Made by a program: the position numbers and the translations under genes. A DNA stretch of 64,000 bases from contig NZ_JAEHJZ010000036.1 of assembly GCF_016469035.1 (NCBI RefSeq), forward strand, positions 10,475 to 74,474, given 5' to 3'. A model generated the notes under the pieces. The model did not search any database. It had not been told where the DNA came from and worked only from the letters and a program-made list of their open reading frames with translations. Positions 22,946 through 42,947 of the stretch are shown piece after piece. Position 1 is the stretch's first letter; each line of letters opens with the position of its first letter. This DNA is from Gelidibacter salicanalis. Its GTDB lineage: Bacteria > Bacteroidota > Bacteroidia > Flavobacteriales > Flavobacteriaceae.

Positions 22946-22954
22946 AATTCGCCG

Positions 22955-24019: not shown

Positions 24020-24025
24020 AATTTT

Positions 24026-25331: not shown

Positions 25332-26336
25332 TTATACTCCAACATTTTTAGCCATAATAATCAAAGAAAGTCCGGCAATAAATAATAAGAACATTAGACC
25401 TATTAATTTGTTTGTTCCTTTAGGAGCATCTTTAAATTCTTTCCATATAAATATTCCCCAAATTGCAGCTACCATAGTCGCTCCTTGGCCTAATCCGTAT
25501 GAAATTGCAAATCCAGCTTCTCCCGCAGCTATCATATTTAAAATAAATCCGAGACACCAAATTACGCCTCCAAAAATTCCTATCAGGTGAAGCTTTGGAG
25601 TACCTAAACTAAAATAATCTTTGTAAGATACTTTTTCACCACTTATTGGCTTGTACATAAAAAAAGTATTGAACACAAAATTAGAAATAAATATTCCTAT
25701 TGAAAATATAAATACCGCTGTATAAGGTGTCAACAGGCCTTCTGTTGGATTAGAAAAATCGACTGACATGGATGCGGCTACAAATCTATAAAAGAACCCC
25801 ATCAACACACCCGCAGCTAAAGAAATAACTATTCCTTTGGTTGTTGCCACTCCCTTTGAAATTCGCTTGTAAACCAAAGCATCCAGAATAATTGCTAAAG
25901 CAACAAGCCCCACGCCCATAAATAACAATAAAGGATCACCCAAAGGTGTTGCTATATAGTTAACTATGACACCCAAAACTAACGCAATTCCTATTCCTAT
26001 AGGAAATGCAATAGCCATACCTGCAATGTCTATTGCCGCGACTAACAATAAATTGGCAATATTAAATACAACCCCTCCTAGAAAGGCATAAAAAATTGCA
26101 TTTAAAGAAGCATCTCCCAAATTTGGTAAAAAAGCCTGTCCACTATCGCCATTGCTCCCTAAAGTTAGTCCAAACACTAATGATAATAATACAACGCCCA
26201 AGGTATAATCCCAGTAAAAGAGTGCGAAACCCCATTCTTGTGAAGCTAATTTTTGCGTATTAGCCCAGGATCCCCAACATAACATTGTTATGACACATAA
26301 AAAAACAGCTAAAAGGTAATTGTCTACTATAAACAT
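25332..26336 (-). CDS. GRP/DMT-superfamily sugar permease
   Basis: A 334-aa inner-membrane protein with about ten transmembrane segments and the GRP-type opening LLAVFLCVITMLCWGSWANTQKLA, plus AIDIAGMAIAFPIGIGIALVLG and YGLGQGATMVAAIWGIFIWKEF near the end. It belongs to the drug/metabolite-transporter clan (glucose/ribose permease and ureide-permease relatives). Because ribokinase and glycohydrolases lie upstream on the same strand, import of ribose is the best guess. It is 86 bp after the YD-repeat-like gene. Other substrates, for example nucleobases, remain possible. Confidence 0.82.
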   Translation of the reverse strand: MFIVDNYLLAVFLCVITMLCWGSWANTQKLASQEWGFALFYWDYTLGVVLLSLVFGLTLGSNGDSGQAFLPNLGDASLNAIFYAFLGGVVFNIANLLLVAAIDIAGMAIAFPIGIGIALVLGVIVNYIATPLGDPLLLFMGVGLVALAIILDALVYKRISKGVATTKGIVISLAAGVLMGFFYRFVAASMSVDFSNPTEGLLTPYTAVFIFSIGIFISNFVFNTFFMYKPISGEKVSYKDYFSLGTPKLHLIGIFGGVIWCLGFILNMIAAGEAGFAISYGLGQGATMVAAIWGIFIWKEFKDAPKGTNKLIGLMFLLFIAGLSLIIMAKNVGV

Positions 26337-26422
26337 GACTCATTTTTTTTTTGGTTAGTATTATTCTTGTTGAACTCACATTGCATTATTTTAACTGGAA
26401 ATAATAAAACAACATTGATATT

Positions 26423-27220
26423 TTATTCTTCGTAATACGTATATGACCAAGATTCAGTGAAACCACCACCACTACCTGTTCCGTTTTTAATTTGAGTGGC
26501 CACTCTATTTTGATCATCAAAAGTATAGTCAAAGGTGGCACCATAATTTGAGTCTGGATCAGATGTTAATTTCCTGAGGTAATTTTTAGCTAACTTTTTA
26601 CTTTGTCTTCCATATAAGCCTCCAACAGTCTTCCATTGAGAATCAACTGTAAATGTTTGATGGATTGAACTTGGATTACTGGCAATAGTATATTCAAACA
26701 CTCTATCTTCCCTTACTGTAACACCATCGTCCTCATACCTAACTCTATTAGTGATATTACTGTTGTTGATTTTATTTTCATATTTTAAATGGTCTGCGCC
26801 ACTGTAATGCTCAAATATTTTTGCAAGAAAACCTTCGCCATCATATTCAAAAGCTGCGTACTCAGTTCCTGAGTCATTCCATAATTCTTTGCTAATGCGG
26901 CCTTCTCCGTCAAGAGTATAATTAGTTAAGTTACCACCTTTATTTATTGACAATTTTCCTGCTTGGGCATAATCATACATAATAACTTCAGGTGTACCTC
27001 CGTCATAAACATTTGAAATACTTGTTACACGATCGTTTCCGTCATAGGTAAATTCCCAACTTTCTATGCCATAACCTCCATCAAAACTTATTTTTTTAAT
27101 TTTGGAATCCGGAACCACTGGAAAATCTGATTCACCACTTATATCATTTGTACAAGATGATAGTAAAATTAAGGTCAAGCAAATAGCAATTGAGTTTAAA
27201 TACTTAATTGAATTTTTCAT
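26423..27220 (-). CDS. YD-repeat-like lipoprotein of unknown function
   Basis: A 265-aa lipoprotein: the lipobox is LILLSSC with Cys near residue 23. The body is a series of beta-rich units of the kind FDGGYGIESWEFTYDGNDRVTSISN, KLSINKGGNLTNYTLDGEGRISKEL, and FDYTFDDQNRVATQIKNGTGS, similar to the YD/RHS-like repeats in Bacteroidetes lipoproteins (DUF4595-like). It may be a surface or periplasmic binder, but a role is not known. It lies 41 bp after the esterase gene and is in the same direction as the sugar-uptake locus. Confidence 0.75.
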   Translation of the reverse strand: MKNSIKYLNSIAICLTLILLSSCTNDISGESDFPVVPDSKIKKISFDGGYGIESWEFTYDGNDRVTSISNVYDGGTPEVIMYDYAQAGKLSINKGGNLTNYTLDGEGRISKELWNDSGTEYAAFEYDGEGFLAKIFEHYSGADHLKYENKINNSNITNRVRYEDDGVTVREDRVFEYTIASNPSSIHQTFTVDSQWKTVGGLYGRQSKKLAKNYLRKLTSDPDSNYGATFDYTFDDQNRVATQIKNGTGSGGGFTESWSYTYYEE

Positions 27221-27261
27221 AATTTATAAGTTTAAATATTAGTTTGTAGTTTATATTCTTT

Positions 27262-28818
27262 TTAATAGTGAATCTTTTTTTGACTGAAATCTAAGGCATC
27301 TGAAAGCTCATTTAGGAACCAATCAACATTCCCTTTGCCTTGACTTACTCTATATTCATGATAAATATCTTTTTCTTTGAATAGTATATGCGTTAACCCA
27401 TTGGATTTATAATTCATGCTTTTGTCAGTTGTAGAAACAAAGAACCAAGTGCGATTTAAAGATTTTATTTGATCCTCTGTAAGCGCTTTCAACGTTTCAA
27501 TGTCAATAGGCGCATCATATACAGCACAAGAAGTAAAATCAGGATTTTTTACTGCATAGTCAAACGCTTTTGCACCCGCTTCTTTAAATCCTATTATAGA
27601 CTGAAAACGACGACCTTCCCTAATACGATAATTCGATTTAGCAATGGACATAATTGAATCAAAAGACATTTCTGACTTTAAATCAATAAAAACAGAAATA
27701 ATAGGTGGAAACTTAACTGCTTTAGTTTGATGCATTAGCATGTTTGCGATAGCCACCTTAGTTGAATTCGCAAATTTACCCACGAAATAAACGACAGGAT
27801 AATAACGAAGAGACGTTGTATAATCCACAGGTAACAAGACGTCAAATCCATCATCATTCATTAGCTTTAAATCTAATTTAGCAGCGTTGACAGTATCAGA
27901 AAAATGCTCCTTTACATCCCCTCGATACGGCTTTTGACTAAATGCATCATCAATAAAATTTAGACCGTTTGTCAATGACCCTCTCCAATATTCAAAATTG
28001 TGCCCACCATTTCTTACTCTAAATTCATGGTCGAAATTCAAATCTCTTAGTAGGATATGTAACTCTTCATTACTCTTGCTTAAGGTTTGCTCATCATCTC
28101 CATTATCAATAAAAATCTTCAAATCTTTAAATCGATTTAAATTGGTCTTATTGAATAGATGAAAAGGAGAGTTATCTTTATAATACTGAGTAATTCGGTC
28201 TTCCCCATATATTCCCACGCCACCAAAAAGTCTTCCCCACTGTTCATCCCATTCAGTTGGATCTTCAGTCATATATTGATCATCAGTTCGAACTGAGATA
28301 CTTAATGGCACACAAACTGAAAATACTTCAGGATGTTTTATCGGAAGAATCAATGCTCCAAAACCTCCCATAGAAAACCCAATAGTTGCTCTATTTTTAT
28401 TGTTAGGCATAGTTCTATAATTAGCATCTATAAAAGGAACTAATTCATTTACAAACATATCCTGATATGAAAATTTTCCATAAAAATCGTTCACATAATA
28501 GGTGCTGTAGCCTTCGGGCATCACATAAATCATGGACTGGATTTCGTTTTTGTTTACCACATCATCAATATGCTGGCCTAACCTGCCATATTCTAACCAA
28601 GAATAATCATTACCACCTAATCCGTGAAGAAGGTAAACCACTGGATACCTTTTTTCGCTTTTAAGATAATCCTTTGGAAGAATGATTGAGTATTTAACCG
28701 TTTGACCAAGTATTTTACTCTCGATCGATTTCCCTTCGTAAGTAACAACCATATCCTGAGCTGACCCCATAGGAGATTGCAAGATAAACAACAAGATTAT
28801 TACGAAAGTTCTCATCAA
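27262..28818 (-). CDS. Secreted double-domain esterase (second domain inactive)
   Basis: A 518-aa exported protein (signal peptide residues 1-20, ending GSAQ). The first esterase domain (about 25-290) resembles D/feruloyl-esterase or S-formylglutathione-hydrolase-like alpha/beta hydrolases: oxyanion loop VVYLLHGLGGND (60-71), nucleophile S149 in IGFSMGGFG, acid in IDNGDDEQ, and His in RNGGHNFEYW. The second half (about 300-518) repeats the fold, but its nucleophile elbow is GFKEAG, with Lys in place of Ser, so it is probably non-catalytic. It is 18 bp from its lipoprotein paralog. Confidence 0.85.
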   Translation of the reverse strand: MMRTFVIILLFILQSPMGSAQDMVVTYEGKSIESKILGQTVKYSIILPKDYLKSEKRYPVVYLLHGLGGNDYSWLEYGRLGQHIDDVVNKNEIQSMIYVMPEGYSTYYVNDFYGKFSYQDMFVNELVPFIDANYRTMPNNKNRATIGFSMGGFGALILPIKHPEVFSVCVPLSISVRTDDQYMTEDPTEWDEQWGRLFGGVGIYGEDRITQYYKDNSPFHLFNKTNLNRFKDLKIFIDNGDDEQTLSKSNEELHILLRDLNFDHEFRVRNGGHNFEYWRGSLTNGLNFIDDAFSQKPYRGDVKEHFSDTVNAAKLDLKLMNDDGFDVLLPVDYTTSLRYYPVVYFVGKFANSTKVAIANMLMHQTKAVKFPPIISVFIDLKSEMSFDSIMSIAKSNYRIREGRRFQSIIGFKEAGAKAFDYAVKNPDFTSCAVYDAPIDIETLKALTEDQIKSLNRTWFFVSTTDKSMNYKSNGLTHILFKEKDIYHEYRVSQGKGNVDWFLNELSDALDFSQKKIHY

Positions 28819-28836
28819 TTATGGTCTATTTTTAAT

Positions 28837-30453
28837 TTATATTTTTTCTTTCAGAATGGAAAGAGAATTACTTAATCCGTTCAAAAACGACTGATAGGTA
28901 TCGTTCCCTTGCCTTACCCTATATTCATAGCCTATATTTTGTTCTCTTATAGACTTATACATAGTGTTATAGCCTTTATATTCCGCACTATCATCAGTTA
29001 TATCGAGATAATAAAAAGTGCCCGCTACCGGTGCTACAGTATTATCAGTTAAATTAGCGTTAAATAAAAAACAGGACTTAAAAAACGACGACTCATTATT
29101 TATAAATTGAGCCGCTTTTAGACCTCCTTTTGAATTGCCTATTAAAACTCTTTTTTCTTTTTGTGCAAGCGTGCGATAATTGGAATCCGTATAAGAAATT
29201 ATTTGCTCCATGGTAGCAAAACTCAAATCATTTGTTAAAGGAATTTCTACAATTATGGAATATGGTATACTTTGATTACTCATTGCATTATAAAGTAGAG
29301 ACAGAGCGGCCAACTTACTTTCAGTCGGCTGATTACCAGTGTCATGAGCCAAATACAAGACTGGAAACCTAGATATATCTGAAACACCGTAGTTTGAATT
29401 TTTTAAGATGTTAACCGATTGTCCGCTGACTGTTTTGGTTTCATAAGCCGTGTTACTAATAGATTCCCCTATAATTGCTGGAGTAGGTTCTGCGCTATAC
29501 CCTATGCCTTGAAAAGCATCACTAATAAACTTTAAAGCTTCCGGATAAGATGCCTTCCAATAATCAAATGAATGTCCGCCACTTCTTACCCGATACTCAT
29601 GTGAGATATTCAAATCTCTAAGCACCGTATGCAATTTATCATTTGTAATTGAAAGTGATTCCTCATCGTCTCCACAATCAATGAGCAGTTTTAGATTAGA
29701 AAAATTAACAGCATTTTGATTTTCAAAGAAGTAAAATGGGCTATATTGCTTAAAATAATCTGTAAATCGACTTTGACCAGTCGCACCTATGCCTCCAAAA
29801 ATAGGACTCCATTGATAATCATAAACGCTTTGCGGTTCAGCCATATATTGATCGTCCGTTCTAAAAGAAATGCTCAAAGGGACTCCCACAGAAAACACAT
29901 CCGGGTTTAAGGCAGGGAGAATTAATGCGCCATAACCTCCCATAGAATAACCCATGGCTGCCCTATGATTCTTGTCATTTTTCGTTCGAAATAATTGATC
30001 AATTTCAGGAACCATTTCTATGGTAAGCATGTTCATATATGGATACATTCCATTATATCTATTTGCATAATAGGTATTATGTGCACTTGGCATCACAAAA
30101 ATCATGGACGTGATCTCTCCTTTATACTGATCAGAATAATATTGTATCATTCCGTGTGTATACCATGCTTTTTCATTATCTCCAAAACCATGAAATAAAT
30201 AGGTTACGGGATAATCTTCAGTAGATGTGTCGTATCCGTCAGGTAACAAAACGGCATAATCAACGTTTTCACCTAAAATTGAACTATAAAATGTCTGATT
30301 GGTAAGCAATCTCTTAAACGACAATTCTCTCTCCCCAGGAAAAGGATTTTGCTCAGAAACATTGTCTTTGCTAGAGCAACTAAAAATGACTAAACAGAAT
30401 ATGAAAAAATAAAATATTTTGTTAAGCTGATATTCTAAATTTTTAGTAGGCAT
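28837..30453 (-). CDS. Double-domain esterase lipoprotein
   Basis: A 538-aa lipoprotein (lipobox VIFSC, Cys26). The first alpha/beta-hydrolase domain has VTYLFHGFGDNE (83-94), nucleophile S170 in AMGYSMGGYG, acid in IDCGDDEESLS and His in RSGGHSFDYW. The second domain has GNSKGG at the elbow, which keeps a Ser, unlike its paralog. Both paralogs are similar over the full length, so they arose by duplication. The natural ester is not known; an acyl group on a ribosyl compound would fit the locus. It is 21 bp after the glycohydrolase gene. Confidence 0.85.
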   Translation of the reverse strand: MPTKNLEYQLNKIFYFFIFCLVIFSCSSKDNVSEQNPFPGERELSFKRLLTNQTFYSSILGENVDYAVLLPDGYDTSTEDYPVTYLFHGFGDNEKAWYTHGMIQYYSDQYKGEITSMIFVMPSAHNTYYANRYNGMYPYMNMLTIEMVPEIDQLFRTKNDKNHRAAMGYSMGGYGALILPALNPDVFSVGVPLSISFRTDDQYMAEPQSVYDYQWSPIFGGIGATGQSRFTDYFKQYSPFYFFENQNAVNFSNLKLLIDCGDDEESLSITNDKLHTVLRDLNISHEYRVRSGGHSFDYWKASYPEALKFISDAFQGIGYSAEPTPAIIGESISNTAYETKTVSGQSVNILKNSNYGVSDISRFPVLYLAHDTGNQPTESKLAALSLLYNAMSNQSIPYSIIVEIPLTNDLSFATMEQIISYTDSNYRTLAQKEKRVLIGNSKGGLKAAQFINNESSFFKSCFLFNANLTDNTVAPVAGTFYYLDITDDSAEYKGYNTMYKSIREQNIGYEYRVRQGNDTYQSFLNGLSNSLSILKEKI

Positions 30454-30474
30454 AACATTTCAGTTTATTATTTT

Positions 30475-32043
30475 TCAAATACTTGGAGAGTCAGCATAAA
30501 TAACAATTGATTTCATATATATACTAAAATCTGGATTTTTATTTACCCATTTAATTTCTACGTGATGATCTTTATTATCCAATAAATATTTATGAAAAAC
30601 ATCATATTTTCGAACTATGTAATCATAAGGCATTTTGACTTGTTCCACTTTTTCACCATCAATATATACATCTAAAAGCGCTACATAATCACTAGTTGGT
30701 ACGCTACAAATGCTATTTACATTTCCAAGAACGACAATGCCATTTCCCTTAAAACCTATATTAATATTTTTATCAGTATAGTGTTGTCTTAAATAGCGCT
30801 CCTCAGATGGAAAGAGTCCAACAAAAGATTCCTCAAATCTTACCGTTTCGGGCTTTTGAATTTTTATTTTAATTTTATCGCCGTTAACTTCCCCTCCATT
30901 TTCCTCAATTAATTGAAGGCTGTGTTTATAAGTTAAATCATAAACTTCGTTTAAGGAAATCTCCATATATGGAAATTTTAAACCTTCAACTTCTTCCAAT
31001 GCAGGCTTCCAATAATCTGGTATGCCATCGTAACCAAACATAACACCTAAAATACCTGCTGCCGTAGCTGGATTACAGTCTGAATCTTGTCCGCATCTTG
31101 TCGAAATATCCATGGTTTTAAAAAAATCTTTTTCTCCATAAAGTAAGCCGACTACAACATAAGCGGCATTTAACCTAGCGTCTATATTGAACGAATTATA
31201 AACACCCTCTGGACATCCTTTGTCTGACGAATGTTTTTTTTCTATCTCAAACCAAGTTTCTTTCCAGTCATCGGGATGTTTTTTATGCCATTCAATGACA
31301 TCGGCAATCGTTTTATAAAAAAGGCTTTCTTTAGGAATTGTGCTTAATGCTTGTGAAATAACATAATCAATATCATCAGAGATATAAGCGACTGTGTACA
31401 TGGCAGAAACGAAAACACCACCATACCATCCATCACCATAATTCATTATATGCCCAATATCATCACAAAACTTTGATGCGGTATTTGTCATTCCTGGAGC
31501 CATCATACCTGCGAAATCGGCTTCTATTTGAAAATCTATATCATCAGCATGGGGATTATTCATCCAGTGGCCAGAAGCAGGAGGCATTATTCCATTTAAG
31601 ATATTGTATCGCGCCGCTTGGTTAGCGTGCCATAATTTATAATCTTCATTGGCAAATTCCAAAGCAAATGCATCTACAGGAGCATTTAGTCCAACTTTTT
31701 CTAAAATATTTACAAATGTGAGATCAAGATACACATCATCATAAAGCCCTGGATCCAATTCAAAAGTCTCCTTTATGTAGTGGTCATGCCATACTATTTT
31801 TTGATAATCTTGGATCATCGTTCCCTTAAATCTAAATTCAGTTGGCCCTCCAAATGTCACACCAATAGTTTGTCCTGCCCATCCGCCCCGTATTTTATCC
31901 TTTAATTCTTTTTTAGAAAACACCTTGAAGGTCTCTACAGGCTTACTGTGCTTTAAAGTTTGAGAATTCATTTGATTACAGCTAACAACTAAAAAACCGG
32001 TGGCCGCTGTGAATAATAAATATTTTAAAAATCTAACTGTCAT
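30475..32043 (-). CDS. ADP-ribosylglycohydrolase-family lipoprotein
   Basis: A 522-aa lipoprotein (VVSC, Cys22). The PF03747-type fold spans about 45-400: GGWAGQTIGVTFGGP near residue 54, an Asp-rich metal site YDDVYLDLTF, NPHADDIDFQIEADF, DGWYGGVFVSAMYTVAY and RCGQDSDCNPATAAG (the C-terminal D-x-D-x-x-x-A/T site). A C-terminal beta-rich domain follows. Family members hydrolyse N- or O-linked ribosyl bonds, using Mg. Its export suggests action on an external ribosyl substrate, not on protein ADP-ribosylation. It forms a tandem with two paralogs. Confidence 0.88.
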   Translation of the reverse strand: MTVRFLKYLLFTAATGFLVVSCNQMNSQTLKHSKPVETFKVFSKKELKDKIRGGWAGQTIGVTFGGPTEFRFKGTMIQDYQKIVWHDHYIKETFELDPGLYDDVYLDLTFVNILEKVGLNAPVDAFALEFANEDYKLWHANQAARYNILNGIMPPASGHWMNNPHADDIDFQIEADFAGMMAPGMTNTASKFCDDIGHIMNYGDGWYGGVFVSAMYTVAYISDDIDYVISQALSTIPKESLFYKTIADVIEWHKKHPDDWKETWFEIEKKHSSDKGCPEGVYNSFNIDARLNAAYVVVGLLYGEKDFFKTMDISTRCGQDSDCNPATAAGILGVMFGYDGIPDYWKPALEEVEGLKFPYMEISLNEVYDLTYKHSLQLIEENGGEVNGDKIKIKIQKPETVRFEESFVGLFPSEERYLRQHYTDKNINIGFKGNGIVVLGNVNSICSVPTSDYVALLDVYIDGEKVEQVKMPYDYIVRKYDVFHKYLLDNKDHHVEIKWVNKNPDFSIYMKSIVIYADSPSI

Positions 32044-32055
32044 ATGAGTGTTGTT

Positions 32056-33720
32056 TTACATGGGTATATTGCTCCCTGGTTTGTTTTCTGAATACACAAT
32101 TAAGTCATTAATCCTGTATTCATACTCAGGTTTGTGATTCAACCATTTTAATTTCAAAGTATGTTTGCCTTCTGGTAAATTATATTTCCATGCTGGTTCT
32201 AATCTTCTTGCTGAATTCATCATAGGCAATTTCACGGTTTCTTCCAATTTATCGTCAATATAAACTTCCATCAAAGCCACATAAGGATCATCTGGTTCCG
32301 CCAATCCAAAGGATTCTGATCCATAAGTTCTTTTAGAGACCCTATCTATATATTTCACATCCACCTTAGATCGTTTGGCCATATTACCATAGAGTAAAAA
32401 ACCATTCCCAGTAAATTCAAAATTGATTTCATCTGTAAAAGATTCGTCTATTTTATTTCGCTCAATAGGATAAGTGTTTTCAAAATTTTGTTCAAAGGCT
32501 ACCGCAATTGGTTCTTTTATAGGAATAGTCAATTGATCTTGTTCTATTTTCCCTCCTTCATCCTTTATAACTTGTAAAGCATGTTTCATACTCAATTCAT
32601 AGGCCATACTCAACGACATATCTGTATTCTCAAAATTGTCGTTTTCTATTTCTTGAAGTGGTTTTAACCAAAATTCTGGAATACCGTCGTATCCTGTCAT
32701 AACTCCCAAAACACCACCTACAGTTGCAGGATTACAATCGGCGTCTTGTCCACATCGCGCCGCAATATCTACAGATTTCGAAAAATTAGCATCTCCATAC
32801 AACAAACCAATGGTTACATAAGCAGAGTTGATTTTAGCTTCGATATTGAACCCCAAGAAAACACCTTTAGGACAGCCAGTATCATTATTCCATTTTTTTT
32901 GTAATTCAAACCAAGTTTGCTTCCAATCATCAGGAAATTCCTTTTTCCACGCTATAACATCACTGATGCATTCATAAAACTGAGTTCCTTTTGGAATTGT
33001 TTTGATAGCGTTCTCAACTATCTGAGTTGGATTATCAAAAATAAATGCTGATGAATACAGCGCAGATGAATAGACACCACCATACCAACCATCCCCACTA
33101 TTCATGACATGACCAACTCTATCAGCTATTTCTGTGGCCTTATTTACCATTCCTGGCGCCATTAGACCAATAAAATCTGCTTCTATTTGAAAATCAATAT
33201 CATCTGCATGGGGATTGTTTTTCCAATTACCCGATGCAGGTGGCATTATCCCGTTCAAAATATTATATCGTGACGCTTGATTAGCATGTGCTAAATGGTA
33301 TGCTGTGTTGGACCAATGCTTTGCTATAGCTTCAGAACTAGCATTAATACCATATTTTTCAAAAGCACTTACAAAATTTAGATCTGTATAAATATCATCA
33401 AACAGTCCTGGTTTTTTATCCCACCAATATTTTACATAATGTTCGTTCCAAGGAATATTCTGATTTTCATTTATTAGAGAGCCATTGTATTTAAACTCCA
33501 CAGGAGCTCCATAAACCACTCCAATGGTTTGTCCTGCCCATCCTCCTTTTATTTTGTTCTGTAATTCTTGCTTTGAAATTACGAATGATTCTTTTGTTGC
33601 TGGTTCATTTACATCCTCTTGAGCATCTGCCGTTTTTGATGTTTTATCTTGACACGATAGCGCACCAAAAATCAAAATAATCATAAATCCTTTTAAAAAA
33701 TTCTGTTTTGTTAAATTCAT
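32056..33720 (-). CDS. ADP-ribosylglycohydrolase-family lipoprotein
   Basis: A 554-aa lipoprotein (ALSC, Cys23), close to its neighbour downstream over the whole length. Motifs: GGWAGQTIGVVYGAP, FDDIYTDLNF, NPHADDIDFQIEADF, DGWYGGVYSSALYSSAF, RCGQDADCNPATVGG. The metal-site residues are kept. The C-terminus (about 410-554) is a beta-domain that ends in PEYEYRINDLIVYSENK. It is 12 bp from the next gene and 2 bp from the previous one, so all three are cotranscribed. A ribosyl-cleaving role in the periplasm is inferred. Confidence 0.88.
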   Translation of the reverse strand: MNLTKQNFLKGFMIILIFGALSCQDKTSKTADAQEDVNEPATKESFVISKQELQNKIKGGWAGQTIGVVYGAPVEFKYNGSLINENQNIPWNEHYVKYWWDKKPGLFDDIYTDLNFVSAFEKYGINASSEAIAKHWSNTAYHLAHANQASRYNILNGIMPPASGNWKNNPHADDIDFQIEADFIGLMAPGMVNKATEIADRVGHVMNSGDGWYGGVYSSALYSSAFIFDNPTQIVENAIKTIPKGTQFYECISDVIAWKKEFPDDWKQTWFELQKKWNNDTGCPKGVFLGFNIEAKINSAYVTIGLLYGDANFSKSVDIAARCGQDADCNPATVGGVLGVMTGYDGIPEFWLKPLQEIENDNFENTDMSLSMAYELSMKHALQVIKDEGGKIEQDQLTIPIKEPIAVAFEQNFENTYPIERNKIDESFTDEINFEFTGNGFLLYGNMAKRSKVDVKYIDRVSKRTYGSESFGLAEPDDPYVALMEVYIDDKLEETVKLPMMNSARRLEPAWKYNLPEGKHTLKLKWLNHKPEYEYRINDLIVYSENKPGSNIPM

Positions 33721-33722
33721 AT

Positions 33723-35741
33723 CTATTTTGATTTTTGCGAATTATGAACACTCAGTTCAGCTATTGATGTAAATCCTGATACATTTTTTGTGTATTTATT
33801 CCAATGATCTTGAATTGCTGCATCTCCAATAATTCGGATTGCATTTGTAGTTACTGGTTTGAAGGTCAAAATGTATTCAGCAAAATGCGGCTGAAAAAAA
33901 ACAATATCAGTTTCAGGTAACTTTGGACTTAAATTTTGTTTTTCAACTGCAACCCATTTACCTTCTTCGTTTTTGTATTGCACGTTTAAGGATGTAAACC
34001 AACCTCCAAACTCTTCCATACCACCTGTAGAAAACACCATCATATCAATAGTTTGGGCCTCATCCCATTCATAACCATAATAATCAACTTTAGGTATTTT
34101 TGCTTTTGCAGCAAGACTATAAAAAACCGAATTAGCCCCATTAAACACGCCATCATTTATAATTGCAGGAGTTTTGGCATACATAGAATGGCCAAAGGTA
34201 GTCCAACAAGAGTCCAAAACCGCTTCATTTAAAATATGAACATTAACAATTATAGAGTCTGCTTTTCTAGCAAGATTCTCATTCTTAACCAATAAGTCAA
34301 ATGTTTTTGATAATACTGTTTTGCCATTATCAAGCTGTATTTTAATAGGAAATATACCTGATAATTGCGGAGTTCCATTGAGACGGCCTTTATCAAACTT
34401 CGTCCCTGGAGGAAGCTGTCCTTCTACTAAAGACCAATTGTACCCTTTGTTGGCATCACTATAAAATGTAAAATCCACAGGTTGATTAATTTCCATTTTT
34501 GCAGGTGGGCCAATGTAAAACTCTATGGGCGCATTAAACTGTGCACTCGTATTGATTTTTACAACTCTCTGGTTTTTACCTTGAGAAACCGAACCACCCT
34601 TTTCCTCAATAAGTTTAAGGGCCATTGCAAGCATTCTATTTATGATATCATCAATACTAGCGTCTGGCAATTCATAGCGTGTAATGTTGATATAGGTATC
34701 ATTAAATGGTTTAGTCCAACCTTCGATAGGTAGGTACAAATCTTTAGGCAATGCTTTAAATCCAGAAATAATACCTAACAAACCAGCAACAGTTGCAGCT
34801 TGATTATCCGCGTCAAATCCCATGGCACAAGATAAATCCAATGTCCGCTGAAAATCTCCCTCTCCATAAAGCATCGCTAAGATTCCACATGCTCCATTTA
34901 AATTAGCATTCCAAATGGTTTTTGTTAAATCAGGCTCATTAACATAATACTTCAATGCCATTTCCTTCCATGCATCTTGCCACTTAGGGTGTTTTTTGTG
35001 CAGCGCAATCATATCTCGGACTGTTTGAGCATATCGACCATTTTCAGGCAGTGCATCTAAACCAATCTGGATTAATTTATTGATGTCTTTTTCAAAAAAT
35101 GCCGCTGAATACATGGCTCCGTAATGTATAGTTGGTTCCGTACCCCAATCATCACTTGTGACACGAGCTGCCCAATCTGATTTTTGAGCGGCATAGTCAA
35201 TCATGCCCGGAGCAGTGTAAGCCCATATTTCATTTATTAACTGAGGGTCAATTTGAAACCAATGAGGATTGATTTCTTTATCCCCTGTAAAAGGTGGCGT
35301 ATAGCCATAATGCATTAGACCTAATGCTGCTCGATTAGCTAACCAAACACGATCTCTTATATGGAACATCCACGCCTCGCGCATTTGCTCATAAGTTGGC
35401 TCTACACCATACTTTTCCATATTTAATAAATACATGTACTCTACATCTGTATCATCATCAGAAAACGCTCCATTATATTGTTTGAGCTTGTCCAAGTTTT
35501 TTGCGTACCCATAAGGCCAATTTTCCTTGCCTGGTGCATCAATATATTTATTCTCATGCGGTAAACCATAGATATTCCCAATCATTTGACCTATCCAAGC
35601 ACCTGCTATCTTATCTCTTAATTCCTCAACAGGTATTGTTTTGTATTTCAATGGCGGATCTACCGCACAATTATCTGTAGCATTAACAAATAGGAAAGGC
35701 GTTAAAACATATATTAAAATTAGAATTTGTTTCTTCATCAT
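33723..35741 (-). CDS. ADP-ribosylglycohydrolase-family protein with Ig-like and C-terminal binding domains
   Basis: A 672-aa exported protein (signal peptide, not a lipobox: LTPFLFVNATDN). The catalytic domain (about 30-390) has GAWIGQMIGNIYGLP, the metal motif SDDDTDVEYM (closer to the canonical TDDT form than its paralogs), and MGFDADNQAATVAGLLG. It is followed by an Ig-like putative domain (EINQPVDFTFYSDANKGYNWSL...GTPQLSGIFP, about 415-490) and a C-terminal beta domain (about 500-670) resembling a carbohydrate-binding or F5/8-like module. It overlaps the SusD stop by 1 bp. Confidence 0.87.
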   Translation of the reverse strand: MMKKQILILIYVLTPFLFVNATDNCAVDPPLKYKTIPVEELRDKIAGAWIGQMIGNIYGLPHENKYIDAPGKENWPYGYAKNLDKLKQYNGAFSDDDTDVEYMYLLNMEKYGVEPTYEQMREAWMFHIRDRVWLANRAALGLMHYGYTPPFTGDKEINPHWFQIDPQLINEIWAYTAPGMIDYAAQKSDWAARVTSDDWGTEPTIHYGAMYSAAFFEKDINKLIQIGLDALPENGRYAQTVRDMIALHKKHPKWQDAWKEMALKYYVNEPDLTKTIWNANLNGACGILAMLYGEGDFQRTLDLSCAMGFDADNQAATVAGLLGIISGFKALPKDLYLPIEGWTKPFNDTYINITRYELPDASIDDIINRMLAMALKLIEEKGGSVSQGKNQRVVKINTSAQFNAPIEFYIGPPAKMEINQPVDFTFYSDANKGYNWSLVEGQLPPGTKFDKGRLNGTPQLSGIFPIKIQLDNGKTVLSKTFDLLVKNENLARKADSIIVNVHILNEAVLDSCWTTFGHSMYAKTPAIINDGVFNGANSVFYSLAAKAKIPKVDYYGYEWDEAQTIDMMVFSTGGMEEFGGWFTSLNVQYKNEEGKWVAVEKQNLSPKLPETDIVFFQPHFAEYILTFKPVTTNAIRIIGDAAIQDHWNKYTKNVSGFTSIAELSVHNSQKSK

Positions 35742-37249
35742 TAATCTGGGTTTTGAGCTAAATTGGGGTTAGTATTTAAAGCTGTTTGAGGGATAGGAAA
35801 CAATTTTTTGTTTGGCCCTGAAGCTGGTTTTTCCCACCACGCATTTCCATAGACACCAAAGCGAATTAAGTCTTGTCTTCGTCTGCCTTCCCAAGCAAAC
35901 TCTCGCCCAAATTCGTCCAACAATTCCGAATCTGATAAATCCCCAACAGTGTAAGGTGCTAACCCAGCTCTGGTTCGTATCTTTTGCAGATCAGAGTTAT
36001 CTATAAATTCACCTGCCCTTCCTAATCTGTAGAGCGCTTCCAATTTCATATAAAGGACATCTGCATATCTAAAAAGAGCAAAATCATTTTCCATATCAGC
36101 GCCATAATTTATATTTTTTTGATATTGGTATTTAGCAATTCTGGCGCCTTCCCATTTTTTACGTGACGTATAATCTTCAATAGTTGGAGTATATATAAAT
36201 GGCTCGCCACCCTCTACAATAGGATTTCCACCACTATTATATTGTTGACCAAACAAGAATGAATTCCTCCTTAAATCATTTTCGGCATATTTAGCAAAGA
36301 AATCTGGTTGAACAACAAATCCATCCCATGGATCTGCAATCATGTCAAACGATGCCTTGCTTGATGGATTTAACGAAAGATAGCCCCAATAAAAACCATC
36401 TCCTGTTAAACTTGGATGAAATGGAATAACAAATATATTCTCGGAAGAGTTTTCATTTTTTACCAAAAAGTTGGAAAAATAATTATTCTCTATTGAATAT
36501 GCCCCTGTTCCTATAACCATGTCACAGGCCGCTACAGCTTCAGAAAATTTATCCTCACCAGTCCATTCTTTAGAATTTAAATACATTTTTGCCAAAAGTG
36601 TGTAAGCCATTCCTTGGGTAACTCTTCCGTAATATTCAGGCGTCGGCAAATCTTGAAGAGCACCTACATTATCATTGATTTCATTAACTATGAAGTCAAA
36701 AATAAATTTACGATTTTGTTGCTGTGGAAGTTCTGTTTCAGCAAAATCAACTGAATACGGCACATTCCCCCAATAGTCTATGGCCCAATAGTAATAATAA
36801 GCTCTTAGAATTTTAATTTCACCCACCACTCTTTCTTTATTATTAAATTCGATAGGTGTAATTACAGATAATATCTCATTACACGCGCTAATCCCTTCAA
36901 AAACGAGGTTCCAAGATTTTGTCAAGATTTTATTATTCGAAGTAGAGCTGCTTAAAGTGTGCTTTTGGATGACTTCCCATCTCCCTTGGTCATACCAATC
37001 TCCATTATCTTTGGCAGGTATCACCAATTCATCAGAAGCATTCTCTCCAAGCGCCCATAAAAACTGTTCGCCAGGATAACTTTGTAATTTGGTATAAGCC
37101 CGTCCCGTATAAGCAATAAGGTCTTTTTCACTGTTAAAGAAATTATTGGCATCTATTTCTGAATAGACTGTTTCAGATAAATCAGTACAAGAAAACACTA
37201 AGCAAATTAGTAATAGTGGTCGTGCGATTTTTAAAAAATACGTTTTCAT
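35741..37249 (-). CDS. susD: SusD/RagB-family nutrient-binding lipoprotein
   Basis: A 502-aa outer-membrane lipoprotein (LVFSC, Cys21) that forms the lid on the SusC barrel. The SusD pattern is visible: the tetratricopeptide-like N-terminus (DLIAYTGRAYTKLQSYPGEQFLWALGENASDELV, EIKILRAYYYYWAIDYWGNVPY), and the C-terminal RTRAGLAPYTVGDLSDSELLDEFGREFAWEGRRRQDLIRFGVYG signature with the final PIPQTALNTNPNLAQNP. It lies 20 bp after susC. The ligand is inferred from the neighbours: a ribosyl compound. Confidence 0.94.
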   Translation of the reverse strand: MKTYFLKIARPLLLICLVFSCTDLSETVYSEIDANNFFNSEKDLIAYTGRAYTKLQSYPGEQFLWALGENASDELVIPAKDNGDWYDQGRWEVIQKHTLSSSTSNNKILTKSWNLVFEGISACNEILSVITPIEFNNKERVVGEIKILRAYYYYWAIDYWGNVPYSVDFAETELPQQQNRKFIFDFIVNEINDNVGALQDLPTPEYYGRVTQGMAYTLLAKMYLNSKEWTGEDKFSEAVAACDMVIGTGAYSIENNYFSNFLVKNENSSENIFVIPFHPSLTGDGFYWGYLSLNPSSKASFDMIADPWDGFVVQPDFFAKYAENDLRRNSFLFGQQYNSGGNPIVEGGEPFIYTPTIEDYTSRKKWEGARIAKYQYQKNINYGADMENDFALFRYADVLYMKLEALYRLGRAGEFIDNSDLQKIRTRAGLAPYTVGDLSDSELLDEFGREFAWEGRRRQDLIRFGVYGNAWWEKPASGPNKKLFPIPQTALNTNPNLAQNPD

Positions 37250-37269
37250 AATAGTTTCTTTTTAAATAA

Positions 37270-40212
37270 TTAAAATTTTACGTTCAATCCAAAAGCTATG
37301 GATGTTGTTCTTGGATAATATGATAAAGCATCTATACCAGGCTCTATACCCCCTAAATTTACTTCAGGATCTATACCGTTATATTTGGTAATGGTAAACA
37401 CATTCTGCGCCGACCCAAAAACACTCAGGCCTGAGATGTATTTTGAGTTAATTTTAAAATCATGGCTTAAAGTAATGTTATCTAATTTTAAGAAAGATGC
37501 ATCTTCTATATATTTTGAAGAATATGTAATGTTTCCTGTAAATTCAGGGTTTTCATATTGCGTGTGTACAACATTTCTTAGTCCAATGCCATTCCAGGAT
37601 TCATAATACAGTCGATAAGCATTTAAAACATCTCCTCCAATACCTGCACGCATGGCAAAACTTAAATTCCAGTTTTTGTAGCTCAAATTGTTGCTCCATC
37701 CAATAATGGCATCAGGATTGGCATTCCCAATTTTCTCCCAATCACTTTTATCTACAACACCAAGAGGGTTTTGATTCTTAAACACATCTACACCATCTTC
37801 ACTTACACCTAACCACACTGGCCCATAAAATGAACCAAGTTCCTGACCTTCTTCTATTCTTTGCGTGAAAACAGTTACAGCCCCTCCTACAAAACCACGC
37901 TCGTAAGATGTTTGAGTAAATTCAGCGTTAGATATTTTATCCAAAGCATTTTTATTGTGACTTGCCGTAATTGTCGTACTCCATTTAAAGTCAGAGTTAT
38001 TGATAATCAATCCATTTAAAGTCGCTTCAACTCCTGTGTTGCTAATCGTGCCCACGTTTGTGAACAACTCATTAAAAAGATAAGGTGGCACCGGCACTTC
38101 GAAGTTCCATAAAAGATCTTCGGTTTTCCGCTTATAATACTCTAAACTCCCGCTAAACCTTTGGTCAAATAGGGAAAAATCCAATCCAACATTATATTCT
38201 TTTTTCTTCTCCCATCTCAAATCTAGATTTGGGTTTTGTCCAGGACCGTATGAATTGATCCATTGTTGATTATAAAACAAACTCCCAACTCTATTTAACA
38301 AAATAAGGGATTGATAGGGAGCAAAATCCTGATTACCAGTAACTCCATATCCAATACGCAATTTTATATTATTTACCCATTTCACGTCATTTAAAAATTG
38401 TTCTTCATTAATTCTCCATCCTACACTAATAGCTGGGAACACTCCCCACTTGTTGTTATCACCGAATTTAGAAGACCCTTCCTTTCTTATAGAAGCTGAC
38501 AACAAGTATTTTTCTTTATAATTATAGGTTGCTCTACCAAAAAACGCAATCAATGTACTCTTACTTTTGTACGAACCCAAACTTGCATTTCCTTCAGGCA
38601 ATCCTAAACCAGCTCCAATATTGTTATATAAAAAAGTATCAGAATCAAATCCTGTGTTACTCAAAAATGAACTATTAAATTTACTTTCTTGAAATGAATA
38701 ACCTCCAATAACTCCTACATTATGATTTCCAAATTTTTGATGAAAATCTAAAACACTCTCAAATTGCACATCGCTGCTTCTACCATTTGCAATTTCCGCT
38801 TCTCCTCCTGCTCCTAAAGCGGTAGGGTAAAAATTAGTTCTATAGGAATTATCTTCCCATTCAGACGTTTGTTCCGATATAAAATTATCCCAGGTTAGAT
38901 AATCTGTAAGCTTTGTTGTAACCCGTAAATTTGCCAATATGTCATTAGTTTTACCATCCCTAGTGCGTTCTTTGAGCAAAGCTACAGGATTGTAGTATTC
39001 TAAGCCTGACACAAATGAGTAACCTCCTGTATCAGGATTAGTATCATCATAAACGGGTTGTGTGGGATTTTGAAAAAATGCCTGTCTGAAGATATCATAA
39101 TTCGCAGGAGAGTATGTTCTACTTCCTCTTGTTAAATTAAAATTCAATTTAATTGCATCATCAAAAAAGCTTTGTATAATATTCGTTTTAATTAACAAAC
39201 GTTTCGATTCATTTCTCTGCAGCAAACCTTCACTTTGATTAAGAGTAACGGAAGACCTATGGGAGAAAACCTCGTCACCACCAGAGAATGAAACTGTGTT
39301 TTGTGAACTGATTGGAATTGATCTTGTAACTTCATCGAACCAATTTGTTTTACTTCCATAAAGACTTCCTGTTCTTGATGGCTGGTAGGTATTAATAGCG
39401 TCTACAAATTCATCGGCAGTCAAGTTTTGTACACCTTTTGGGGACACTTGAACTGATACTTGAGAAGAATATTCAAAGGTGCCTTTACCATTTATAGCCT
39501 GTTTTGTTGTAATAATAATAACCCCATTTGTTCCCCTTGTTCCGTATATTGCTGCTGCAGAACCGTCTTTTAAAACATCAAAGGACTCAACATCTTGGAA
39601 ATTTATATTTTTTAGGTCAGCTCCTATTACTCCATCTATTATTATTAATGGCTGTTGTCCTGATGTTAAGGTATTTGCCCCTCTCAATAAAATTTGATAA
39701 CCTGATAAAGGGTCAGCACCATTTGGCTGGGTAATAGATAAACCTGCTACTTTCCCTTGGATTAGGCCCACGGGGTCACTGTAAAGACCTTGGTTAAATT
39801 CATCTGACTTAATGGATGTTACGGCACCCGTATTTTCCTTTTTTGTCGATTGTCCATAACCAATTAAAACAACTTCATCTAAACCTTCGAGAGATTCTTG
39901 AAGAACAACATTGATAACAGGATTAGCAGCATTTACTCCCACCTCTTGAGGATTATACCCAACATATGAAAAAACAAGAGTGGCAGATGAAGGCACTGTT
40001 AATTGATAATTTCCATCAAAATCTGAAAGGGTTCCAGTTTGTGAATTTTTCACGTAAACATTGACACCTGAAAGAGGTAAACCTTCCTCATTTTTCACTT
40101 GTCCTGTAACGTTAATATCTTGAGAGAACAAATTATTTGTTGTAAAAACGAGCGCCAGTAAGACCATTAGTTTTGTAATACCCCCCAATTTAAAGATAAG
40201 TTTAGTTATCAT
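37270..40212 (-). CDS. susC: SusC/RagA-family TonB-dependent transporter
   Basis: A 980-aa outer-membrane transporter with a signal peptide (ending NLFSQ), a carboxypeptidase-D-regulatory-like domain (DINVTGQVKNEEGLPLSGVNVYVKN, about 33-110), the SusC TonB box and plug (DEVVLIGYGQSTKKENTGAV, then LLRGANTLTSGQQPLIIIDGVIG), a 22-strand barrel and a C-terminal F. No N-terminal extension for an anti-sigma partner was seen. It works with SusD to import the substrate into the periplasm. It lies 27 bp from ribokinase, so all belong to one transcript. Confidence 0.95.
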   Translation of the reverse strand: MITKLIFKLGGITKLMVLLALVFTTNNLFSQDINVTGQVKNEEGLPLSGVNVYVKNSQTGTLSDFDGNYQLTVPSSATLVFSYVGYNPQEVGVNAANPVINVVLQESLEGLDEVVLIGYGQSTKKENTGAVTSIKSDEFNQGLYSDPVGLIQGKVAGLSITQPNGADPLSGYQILLRGANTLTSGQQPLIIIDGVIGADLKNINFQDVESFDVLKDGSAAAIYGTRGTNGVIIITTKQAINGKGTFEYSSQVSVQVSPKGVQNLTADEFVDAINTYQPSRTGSLYGSKTNWFDEVTRSIPISSQNTVSFSGGDEVFSHRSSVTLNQSEGLLQRNESKRLLIKTNIIQSFFDDAIKLNFNLTRGSRTYSPANYDIFRQAFFQNPTQPVYDDTNPDTGGYSFVSGLEYYNPVALLKERTRDGKTNDILANLRVTTKLTDYLTWDNFISEQTSEWEDNSYRTNFYPTALGAGGEAEIANGRSSDVQFESVLDFHQKFGNHNVGVIGGYSFQESKFNSSFLSNTGFDSDTFLYNNIGAGLGLPEGNASLGSYKSKSTLIAFFGRATYNYKEKYLLSASIRKEGSSKFGDNNKWGVFPAISVGWRINEEQFLNDVKWVNNIKLRIGYGVTGNQDFAPYQSLILLNRVGSLFYNQQWINSYGPGQNPNLDLRWEKKKEYNVGLDFSLFDQRFSGSLEYYKRKTEDLLWNFEVPVPPYLFNELFTNVGTISNTGVEATLNGLIINNSDFKWSTTITASHNKNALDKISNAEFTQTSYERGFVGGAVTVFTQRIEEGQELGSFYGPVWLGVSEDGVDVFKNQNPLGVVDKSDWEKIGNANPDAIIGWSNNLSYKNWNLSFAMRAGIGGDVLNAYRLYYESWNGIGLRNVVHTQYENPEFTGNITYSSKYIEDASFLKLDNITLSHDFKINSKYISGLSVFGSAQNVFTITKYNGIDPEVNLGGIEPGIDALSYYPRTTSIAFGLNVKF

Positions 40213-40239
40213 ATTCTTCGATTTTAAAGTTTAGATTAA

Positions 40240-41163
40240 TTAGTTTATTGATTTTGCAGAAGTCAATTCCTTTTTATAAGGAATTGAAGACTGGGCCCCC
40301 ATTTTTTGTACACAAAGTCCAGAAGCCTTTACAGCTAACTTTGCAGATTCAGTAATGGATTTGCCTTCTGAAAGACCAACACACAATGTTCCATTAAAGC
40401 AATCTCCCGCAGCAGTAGTATCTATAGCTTTAACTTCATCTGCAGGTATTACAGAATAATTATTTCCTTCTTTAACAAATGCTCCAAGAGACCCCATAGT
40501 GATTACTACATTTGCAACTCCTTTTCCACTAATAACATCGGCGGCTTCTTTTGCCTTTTCATAATCCTTAACCTTTATTCCCGATAGGATTTCAGCTTCA
40601 GTTTCATTAGGTGTAATAAGAAAAAGACCTTTTAATAATTTTTCAGGCAAGCTCCTTGCAGGTGCTGGATTTAGTATAACTGGTGTTTTTTTTTTTAACG
40701 CCAATTCCGACACGTATTCAACAGTTTCAATAGGTATCTCCAATTGCATTAATATCAAATCAGCATTACCAATCTGAGTTTTAAACTTTTCAATATCCTT
40801 TGGGGTTAAATTGGCATTAGATCCGGATGCTACTGCTATACAATTTTCACCATCAGAATTAACCATAATAAGTGCCACTCCCGAAGGATTTTTAGGATCA
40901 GATAATATTAAATCGGTATTTATACCTTCAGAATTGTAAAGTTCTAAAGACTGTTTACCAAACACATCGTTTCCTGTTTTGGCAACAAACGTAACAAGTC
41001 CACCCTGACGGGCAGCAGCTACTGCCTGATTGGCACCCTTTCCTCCAGGGTTCATCAGAAATGTACCTCCAATAACTGTTTCCCCTGGCGTTGGTAAACG
41101 GTCACTTTTAATAACCATATCTGTATTGCAACTTCCTATAACAAATATTTTCTTCTTATCCAT
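40240..41163 (-). CDS. rbsK: Ribokinase (PfkB family)
   Basis: A 307-aa cytoplasmic kinase that makes ribose 5-phosphate. PfkB signatures: NPGGKGANQAVAAARQGG near residue 38-55, and DTTAAGDCFNGTL near 249-261 with the catalytic Asp; ILNPAPARSLPEKLL and VITMGSLGAFV are typical ribokinase stretches. The D-T-T-A-A-G-D form is common in ribokinases. It is the first gene of the susC-susD-glycohydrolase transcript, so ribose is the likely sugar end product of this locus. The 221-bp gap upstream contains a palindrome, AAAAATCGATTTTT (41294-41307). Confidence 0.93.
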   Translation of the reverse strand: MDKKKIFVIGSCNTDMVIKSDRLPTPGETVIGGTFLMNPGGKGANQAVAAARQGGLVTFVAKTGNDVFGKQSLELYNSEGINTDLILSDPKNPSGVALIMVNSDGENCIAVASGSNANLTPKDIEKFKTQIGNADLILMQLEIPIETVEYVSELALKKKTPVILNPAPARSLPEKLLKGLFLITPNETEAEILSGIKVKDYEKAKEAADVISGKGVANVVITMGSLGAFVKEGNNYSVIPADEVKAIDTTAAGDCFNGTLCVGLSEGKSITESAKLAVKASGLCVQKMGAQSSIPYKKELTSAKSIN

Positions 41164-41384: not shown

Positions 41385-42947
41385 TTATTCAATAACCTTT
41401 CTTACGGAATCTATCACGGTACCATCAACCCATTTAATTATAGCAACAACCTCATCTCCAAATACTGGTTTTTGTGGAACACCACAAATTCTCTCAGCTT
41501 CATCTTTTAATTCATAGATTGACTTAATTGGCAACCCGGATCCTCTAGTTTTCTCGATTAAATCTTTCCGCAAAGGGTTGATAGCAATACCCCTTTCGGT
41601 TATTATAACATCTATCAATTCTCCAGGTCCACAAACAGTTGTCACATGATCTTTAATTACCGGTATTCTATCCCTAAAAAGCGGTATAGGTAAAATTGTG
41701 CATTTTGAAAACAAGCAGTTTTGCCATCCGCCCAATCCATGTAATAAAAGACCGTCTGAATGCGTAACCACATTTCCGTTAAAATTGACATCAACTTCTG
41801 TAGCACCCAAGACAACTACATCTACCAGTTGTGCGAAATTGCCCTTACCATGATAGTTATAACTTGTAAATGGACTGGTATCAACATGATTAGGGTTATG
41901 TCTCATAGAATTCACCCCATCTAAATCAAAAGTTTGTCCATCCAATATAAAATCCAGTAAATTGTCTTTGAGCATATCTACCAAAAACTTATTGCTGCCA
42001 CCTCTTGCAAAGCGCGCCTTGATACCTTTTCTTTTAAGAACTTCGGCAAAATAAAAGCCAACCGCTAAAGATGTTCCGCCCGCTCCTGCCTGAAAGGAAA
42101 ACCCATCTTTTATAATTCCAGCATGTTCACAAAAGCGAGCTGTCAGTTTAGCAAGAAATAAGCGATCAGGACTTTTTGTAATTGCTGTGGTTCCAGACAA
42201 TATATTTTCAGGAATCCCAATCTTATCTACTTTTACCACATAATCCACATAGTTGCCTTGAATTTGCCAAGGTAAACATGGAAAAAGCACAAGATTATCG
42301 GTCACAACAACAACCTTATTTGCATATTGAGAATCTGCCAGTGCAAAACCGAGCAAACCACAAGCCGATGGCCCATTAACGCCATTTGCATTTCCAAAAC
42401 CATCTGCTGTTGGAGCAGCAATAACCGCAATATCTATCTGCACCTCACCATCTTGAACAGCTTGGTAGCGCCCTCCATGAGATCGAAGAACACCCATTCC
42501 TTTCATATTTCCATATGAAACATAACGTCCGAGTGCTCCGTTTAGACTACCTTCTATATGATGGATTGTACCATTATCCATGTATTTAATCAATTCAGAA
42601 TGGCATTCAAATGAAGCTGAAGGAAACCATATTAAATTTTTTACATTTAGTTCCGAAGCAATCTCAAATATTTTATTAGCTATTAGATCCCCATTTCTAA
42701 AATGATGATGCGTGGAAATTGTCATACCATCTCTTAGTCCAGATTTAATTAACGCTTCTTTTAAACCCGAGACTAGCTTATTTCCATCATTTGGAAAGTC
42801 AATGCAAGTAGCAACCTTAGGAGCATATTTAAAACCTTCTGGCCTGTGTTTATCAACACCTTTATAAGGAATTACTTTACTACCATTCACAGTACTGGGC
42901 ACCTCTCTATCAATAGCATTTACAAGCATATTATTTTCTCTTTTCAT
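41385..42947 (-). CDS. citF: Citrate lyase alpha subunit-like (acyl-CoA transferase)
   Basis: A 520-aa protein with the CitF pattern along its full length: KLVSGLKEALIKSGLRDGMTISTHHHFRNGDLIANKIFEIA, VLRSHGGRYQAVQDGEVQIDIAVIAAPTADGFGNANGVNG, AGAGGTSLAVGFYFAEVL, MRHNPNHVDTSPFTSYN, FNGNVVTHSDG, and GVPQKPVFGDEVVAIIKWVDGTVIDSVRKV. CitF moves the acetyl group of the lyase's carrier protein to citrate, forming citryl-ACP. It is 12 bp after the CitD-CitE gene. An alternative acid (for example a methylated or hydroxylated relative of citrate) cannot be excluded. Confidence 0.9.
   Translation of the reverse strand: MKRENNMLVNAIDREVPSTVNGSKVIPYKGVDKHRPEGFKYAPKVATCIDFPNDGNKLVSGLKEALIKSGLRDGMTISTHHHFRNGDLIANKIFEIASELNVKNLIWFPSASFECHSELIKYMDNGTIHHIEGSLNGALGRYVSYGNMKGMGVLRSHGGRYQAVQDGEVQIDIAVIAAPTADGFGNANGVNGPSACGLLGFALADSQYANKVVVVTDNLVLFPCLPWQIQGNYVDYVVKVDKIGIPENILSGTTAITKSPDRLFLAKLTARFCEHAGIIKDGFSFQAGAGGTSLAVGFYFAEVLKRKGIKARFARGGSNKFLVDMLKDNLLDFILDGQTFDLDGVNSMRHNPNHVDTSPFTSYNYHGKGNFAQLVDVVVLGATEVDVNFNGNVVTHSDGLLLHGLGGWQNCLFSKCTILPIPLFRDRIPVIKDHVTTVCGPGELIDVIITERGIAINPLRKDLIEKTRGSGLPIKSIYELKDEAERICGVPQKPVFGDEVVAIIKWVDGTVIDSVRKVIE

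Follow-up and report, generated by a model that had tools for sequence, protein, structure and literature searches.

In the genome of Gelidibacter salicanalis (assembly GCF_016469035.1, contig NZ_JAEHJZ010000036.1), we examined a stretch of 64,000 nucleotides, hereafter the window, and describe a ribose utilization (rus)-type locus at window positions 25332-47378. It encodes three putatively exported ADP-ribosylglycohydrolase-family proteins (ADPRGH-A, -B, and -C; hereafter A, B, and C), two CE1-like esterases, a SusC/SusD pair, a ribokinase, and a permease, together with a citrate-type transporter, citrate lyase genes, and a regulator of the BT2802 family. Its gene order is conserved in another genus, and related loci are associated with citrate transporters and with the citrate lyase alpha subunit, CitF. 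We see about an even chance that the locus serves the use of an acylated alpha-ribofuranoside, yielding ribose and citrate from one compound or food source; what we infer here is how the enzymes act, that the linkage is alpha, that there is an ester, and that citrate and ribose share a source. The locus would then be a variant in which three exported glycohydrolases and two esterases replace the nucleoside hydrolase and ribose is coupled to citrate, distributed over Flavobacteriaceae (the window and G047), Ferruginibacter, and Bacteroidales. If so, exported ADP-ribosylglycohydrolase-family proteins would gain a role, and gene neighbourhood would predict the chemistry of a natural substrate.

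The initial annotation recognized ten genes on the minus strand at 25332-41163, and profile scans upheld the positions and families of this run (ribokinase, SusC/SusD, three PF03747 proteins, the esterases, a lipoprotein, and the permease). Its boundary at the ribokinase did not hold, since the citrate transporter, the citrate lyase genes, and the regulator had been overlooked and the full conserved locus extends past 41163 to 47378 (Table 1). From ribokinase to permease, the coordinates give intergenic gaps ranging from a 1-bp overlap up to 86 bp, and this run is probably a single operon. The spacer between citF and rbsK is 221 bp, and no terminator-like site was called in it. G047, from another genus of the same family, carries the full locus (contig pieces L053 and L054) in identical order: permease, lipoprotein, esterases, A, B, C, SusD, SusC, ribokinase, CitF, CitD-CitE, DASS transporter, and a divergent gene of 507 amino acids. 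Because this order is maintained at 51-85% protein identity, the cluster is more than a chance assembly. It is also rare, as G047 holds the one full copy seen besides the window's among 299 genomes sampled from the family, the window's included.

To our knowledge, ribose utilization loci have been tied to free ribose and nucleosides. The initial annotation saw its closest parallel in the rus locus of Bacteroides, and that parallel is strengthened here: the label "rus-like" is right because the divergent gene exceeds the cut-off of the NCBIfam model NF058569, "BT2802 family ribose utilization protein", BT2802 being, we take it, the locus tag of RusR. No Pfam family matched this regulator. Homologues in G047, L050, and L063 also lie above the NF058569 cut-off, while that in L067 scores 267.6 bits, below the required 550. 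SusC is 43-44% identical to its counterparts in L090, L091, L098, and L101, which are rus-type loci judged by a regulator of this type or by a context of ribokinase, A, and GRP permease, and the closest solved chains to the ribokinase are themselves ribokinases. The permease matches Ureide_permease best in Pfam and barely passes the cut-off of the GRP-type model. In the comparison with L050, it is 57% identical to a "GRP family sugar transporter" adjoining the ribokinase. Judging by regulator, kinase, SusC/SusD, and permease sequences, we are highly confident that the locus is of the rus type.

The rus locus of B. thetaiotaomicron, which presumably includes an ADP-ribosylglycohydrolase and two ribokinases, has in common with the window's locus the BT2802-family regulator, ribokinase, SusC/SusD, and permease. 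The window's locus, in contrast, lacks a nucleoside hydrolase and has three glycohydrolases, two esterases, a citrate transporter, CitDE/CitF, and one ribokinase. The B. thetaiotaomicron Rus polysaccharide utilization locus (PUL) has been described as BT2803-2809 under the control of RusR, with RusT as a putative ribose transporter (PMC12596196). A minimal rus-type locus in Parabacteroides distasonis (L050) shares a regulator homologue, ribokinase (58%), A (56%), and GRP permease with the window; it differs in having a nucleoside hydrolase and, in the stretch fetched, neither SusC/SusD nor B, C, an esterase, or any citrate gene. What sets the window's locus apart from these rus loci is the citrate coupling and the set of B, C, and esterases. 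Among the papers listed by searches on ADP-ribosylglycohydrolases, PULs, and rus genes, a set that did not extend to the original rus survey (Glowacki et al. 2020), we saw none on this locus.

A, B, and C all score above the PF03747 cut-off of 26.2 bits and are the sole matches to this family in the whole genome. A and B are about 48% identical in alignment. The three proteins share the PF03747 fold family and its Glu and Asp positions with ARH1, ARH3, and DraG, (ADP-ribosyl)hydrolases of the family, although sequence similarity to solved members is remote. Across 60 aligned sequences, no variation is seen at E69, D103, D107, D320, or D322 (numbered as in A), and almost none at D102. The first metal motif, however, is changed in A and B, where it reads Y/F-DD-x-Y-x-D, whereas C has S-DDD-T-D. 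The motif of A and B matches neither that of C nor that of any of the nine informative relatives out of 20 (11 were dropped, their orientation or frame having been misread), among which we read DDDT in five, DDDS in one, TDDDV in two, and an unreadable residue in one. The two subtypes first proposed, DD-x-Y-x-D for A and B and DDDT for C, stand, but the Ig-like and C-terminal modules ascribed to C were not confirmed, the only Pfam candidate for them being a DoxA match at residues 539-613 that stays below its cut-off (19.8 bits, cut-off 27). Unlike ARH1, ARH3, and DraG, all three appear to be exported, two of them as lipoproteins, in agreement with the initial annotation: by eye, lipoboxes are present in A, B, esterase 2, SusD, and the small lipoprotein, and type I signals in C and esterase 1. 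An assignment of A and B to the ADP-ribosylarginine hydrolase Tri1 was rejected (18 and 25.7 bits to the NCBIfam equivalog NF041672, cut-off 490).

According to published work on the family, its active site holds two metals that touch the ribose 2''-OH, together with a Glu flap and a bridging Asp (PMC7050489, PMC6309922), and the latter paper reports that ARH1 and ARH3 hydrolyse only alpha-linked ADP-ribose. Because of this metal-ribose contact and alpha-only hydrolysis, A, B, and C may act on alpha-ribofuranosides. Two further settings of these enzymes were seen. In L112, L136, and L152, A-type enzymes lie beside GH3 genes with no ribokinase or permease nearby (L152 also has GH97 and GH123), a hint of use on other glycans. 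On plasmid p1 of Flammeovirga kamogawensis (L052:9983-13860), a C-type enzyme accompanies a ribokinase and GRP permease, and the fetched stretch shows neither A nor B.

A scan of genome contigs gave at least 576 matches, of which the best 80 were kept. In the table of called open reading frames (ORFs), 76 of these 80 loci have a called A-type gene; within 10 kb of it, 55 of the 76 have a ribokinase or GRP permease, 14 have a nucleoside hydrolase, and 19 have a B-type hit, one of which (L105) is a weak 24% match. Because long antisense ORFs masked real genes in the ORF calls (for example, A in L081, L095, L099, and L111), the component table was repeated with tblastn. These data bear on the substrates named initially, which were external ADP-ribose, NAD, nucleosides, and ribofuranose-bearing glycans. 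Extracellular scavenging of ADP-ribose, NAD, or nucleosides would suit a family that includes ADP-ribosyl hydrolases, and in minimal rus loci of Parabacteroides a nucleoside hydrolase does adjoin such an A-type enzyme and permease. The earlier remark that no nucleoside hydrolase was seen extends, however, to the whole genome, which contains no PF01156 match, and the locus is therefore not of the nucleoside hydrolase rus subtype. Nor did the Pfam scan of ten locus proteins find a phosphatase, nucleotidase, or Nudix family, and in the ORF table none of the 19 loci with a B-type hit has a nucleoside hydrolase within 10 kb, compared with 14 of the 57 others, L135 being the one exception by tblastn. 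We consider such scavenging improbable and prefer ribofuranose-bearing glycans as the direction in which to look for the substrate.

By tblastn, 25 expanded loci were recognized: the window's, G047's, and 23 of the best 80. A tree built from A, B, C, and SusD, rooted by choice on the second clade, divides them into two clades, the window's with 17 loci and a second with eight. The window clade contains the window, G047, Ferruginibacter L073, and Bacteroidota metagenome-assembled genomes (MAGs) titled mostly Bacteroidales, and the second contains Alistipes, Bacteroides, and other MAGs. A homologue of the regulator adjoins 8 of the 17 window-clade loci (window, G047, L074, L076, L081, L082, L086, and L087), and the remaining nine show 530 bp or less upstream. 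In the second clade, a LacI-type regulator replaces the RusR-type protein at L100:570-1589, L111:2-766, and L146:3-893.

A citrate-type transporter lies next to or inside 13 of the 15 window-clade loci whose flanks can be assessed (L080 and L085 show too little). It is a DASS protein in eight (window, G047, L073, L076, L079, L081, L082, and L087) and a citrate:proton symporter, CitMHS, in five (L074, L075, L083, L084, and L089). Three of the CitMHS calls rest on TIGR00784 scores (L083, 527.6; L089, 538.9; L074, 543.5 bits; cut-off 259.7), one on Pfam (L075), and one on blastp (L084/L219). Five loci (window, G047, L073, L084, and L089) have CitDE and CitF alongside. The citrate genes stand between the regulator and the ribokinase in the window and G047 and downstream elsewhere. 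Because L074, L075, L083, and L084 group inside the DASS-bearing loci on the tree while L089 stands apart, the transporter family has probably been exchanged twice. In L219, from the Prolixibacteraceae MAG of L084, a GH106-like gene (11503-13458) lies between the lipoprotein and CitDE.

The lyase resembles classical citrate lyase (CitDEF) in having CitF, CitE, and a carrier domain with the carrier Ser motif, but in the window CitD and CitE are fused and all three parts fall under their NCBIfam equivalog cut-offs: CitF only just, CitE at 251.9 bits to TIGR01588 (cut-off 443.4), and CitD at 50.7 bits (cut-off 63.5), a value that the CitD of L073 passes with 65.4 bits. The carrier motif is RSDC in the window, and (R/K)SDC is kept in all 21 aligned CitD-CitE fusions; two further CitE-like rows have no carrier domain. 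CitG was not found in 18 of the 20 CitF-bearing genomes searched; in the remaining two, the hit sits next to an additional CitF copy that is more distant. A fused CitD-CitE also adjoins CitF in other Bacteroidota (L222-L228 and L230).

CitF was searched for in 24 locus-bearing genomes, those of the window and G047 and 22 reached through their loci (L095 and L099 of the second clade were left out, and L077, with part of the locus visible on its contig, was kept). A full-length CitF scores above the cut-off in 14 of the 24 and in none of the six second-clade genomes, with the caveat that absence from a MAG may reflect incompleteness. Among the 20 genomes with a judgeable flank, CitF is found in 12 of 13 with a transporter and in 0 of 7 without (Fisher p = 1.0e-4), and it is found in 13 of 23 locus-bearing genomes versus 4 of 394 other genomes of the class (p = 1.6e-15); neither test corrects for relatedness, and the genomes compared come from two sources and include MAGs. 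The idea that citrate lyase is a class-wide housekeeping gene was rejected, since CitF occurs in only 5 of 395 class-sample genomes, the window's included. A link between citrate and A-type rus loci in general was not seen: eight of 395 class genomes have a close A or B match, and none of the seven besides the window's bears CitF, if the two class samples are identical, as their listings indicate. In a wider sample of the phylum, CitF lies above the cut-off in 40 of 395 genomes. Five of these examples were fetched (L222-L226), and CitDE and CitF were the only locus genes recognized in them, bar a weak SusC-like hit in L222; by eye, L223 and L224 have isocitrate-dehydrogenase-like and aconitase-like genes beside CitDE/CitF.

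The citrate genes might be unrelated neighbours sharing descent from one chance insertion. Most transporter-bearing loci do belong to one related clade, in which neighbouring genes are co-inherited, and the locus is rare and lies near transposase and conjugation genes in the window. The position of the citrate genes nevertheless differs among loci, transporter families have been exchanged, and CitF, which sits on a contig other than the locus's in 9 of the 14 CitF-bearing genomes, tracks the presence of the transporter in the locus even from other contigs. Chance insertion is very improbable in our view.

The two esterases match PF00756 and have Ser149, Asp241, and His273, which are invariant in 22 homologues, the Asp being assigned by conservation only; their second halves look degenerate by eye. 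Both are present in all 13 transporter-bearing loci and also in the transporter-less L078 and L086, and the second clade has mostly one, so the link between esterases and citrate is only suggestive. A natural compound or polymer not yet described might bear citrate on ribofuranose and have this locus as its dedicated system of breakdown, with A, B, and C as exported alpha-ribofuranosidases for separate linkages and one esterase as a citroyl esterase; we offer this tentatively and think it rather unlikely. Our literature searches yielded no ribose-citrate compound, and nothing relevant on a PUL with citrate lyase and ribokinase. Alternatively, the citrate genes may serve a nutrient that merely co-occurs with ribosyl compounds, as in exudates, with no covalent ribose-citrate bond and with esterases that remove acetyl groups or aromatic acids. 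That literature result would agree with co-occurrence, as would the ferulic acid esterases that are the closest solved chains to esterase 2 in profile comparison and the second-clade loci, which combine an esterase with A, B, and C and have no citrate genes. Against it, the linkage is tight and recurs with two arrangements of the genes and two families of transporter, which seems more than most co-occurring nutrients would produce, and we regard co-occurrence as possible though somewhat unlikely.

In the reading that we favour, SusC/SusD would import an acylated alpha-ribofuranoside, the two CE1-like esterases would strip its acyl groups, and A, B, and C would release ribose outside the inner membrane, presumably each from different linkages. 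The permease would bring ribose in for phosphorylation by the ribokinase, the DASS transporter and CitDE/CitF would import and cleave citrate that derives either from this compound or from the food source that supplies it, and the RusR-type protein would regulate the locus.

Several observations weigh against this reading, which is built on gene content and sequence comparison. The citrate genes are not essential to the core system, because second-clade loci retain A, B, C, and an esterase with no citrate-type transporter in any of the five that can be assessed (L100, L106, L130, L135, and L146), and the window-clade loci L078 and L086 also lack one (only 1.3 kb is visible beyond the permease of L086); esterases thus occur without citrate genes in some loci. 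L087's genome has the transporter and no CitF match, the DASS family also includes carriers of other anions, and the Fisher tests carry the simplifications given above. In a further departure from classical citrate lyase, the window's genome has no match to CitG (PF01874) or citrate lyase ligase (PF08218), so the lyase may be unusual or may act on another acid, such as citramalate. Finally, in L135 a nucleoside hydrolase match (37%) lies on the far side of an additional SusC/SusD pair.

Table 1. Genes of the rus-type locus in the window, with the profile matches that support each (cut-offs in brackets).
Feature	Position	Strand	Evidence
GRP/ureide-permease-type transporter in RusT-like position, presumed ribose permease	25332..26336	-	PF07168 75.1 bits (27); PF06800 26.6 bits (26.3)
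Small lipoprotein	26423..27220	-	Lipobox by eye; positional relative in L073 carries DUF4595
CE1-like esterase EST1 (first half active-type, second half degenerate by eye)	27262..28818	-	PF00756 136.1 bits
CE1-like esterase EST2, lipoprotein by eye	28837..30453	-	PF00756 102 bits
ADPRGH-A, putatively exported PF03747 protein, DD-x-Y-x-D motif	30475..32043	-	PF03747 125.7 bits
ADPRGH-B, putatively exported paralogue of A	32056..33720	-	PF03747 120.1 bits
ADPRGH-C, putatively exported, S-DDD-T-D motif, long C-terminal half	33723..35741	-	PF03747 102.5 bits
SusD	35741..37249	-	PF07980 92.5 bits; PF14322 53.8 bits
SusC	37270..40212	-	Pfam scan; identity to four rus-type loci
Ribokinase	40240..41163	-	TIGR02152 357.4 bits (299.65)
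CitF-like citrate lyase alpha subunit	41385..42947	-	PF04223 452.1 bits; TIGR01584 494.7 bits (501.45)
Fused CitD-CitE (acyl carrier and citryl lyase)	42960..44171	-	PF03328 167.7 bits; PF06857 54.4 bits
DASS family anion symporter, presumed citrate transporter	44190..45695	-	TIGR00785 261.2 bits (198.6); PF00939 229.5 bits; PF03600 184.6 bits
RusR/BT2802-type regulator, divergent	45846..47378	+	NF058569 633.9 bits (550)

No Pfam or NCBIfam family matched the window's small lipoprotein; its positional relative in L073 matches PF15283 (DUF4595) with 41.2 bits (cut-off 34.2). A 10-mer considered as a shared operator motif occurs in 7 of 21 intergenic regions compared with 6 or fewer in 20 shuffles and is absent from both window regions. 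A Bacteroidetes-type promoter pattern gave 4 matches versus 5.2 expected, and sigma-70-type sites numbered 83 versus 81.1 in shuffles. Terminator-like sites numbered 14 versus 11.2 in shuffles.

Window positions 10924-25131 hold conjugative-element genes (a TraG ATPase, TraM, a mobilisation protein with DUF5712, and a coupling protein) along with a DDE transposase and a HipA-like gene, and this stretch stops 200 bp short of the locus. On the other side, genes at 50200-54814 encode a DUF2249 protein, a ScdA/hemerythrin protein, and a weak COX1-like protein, suggestive of a response to nitric oxide or oxygen, and a thiamine biosynthesis operon (ThiC, ThiE-like, ThiG, a radical SAM protein, and ThiF) follows at 56851-63815.

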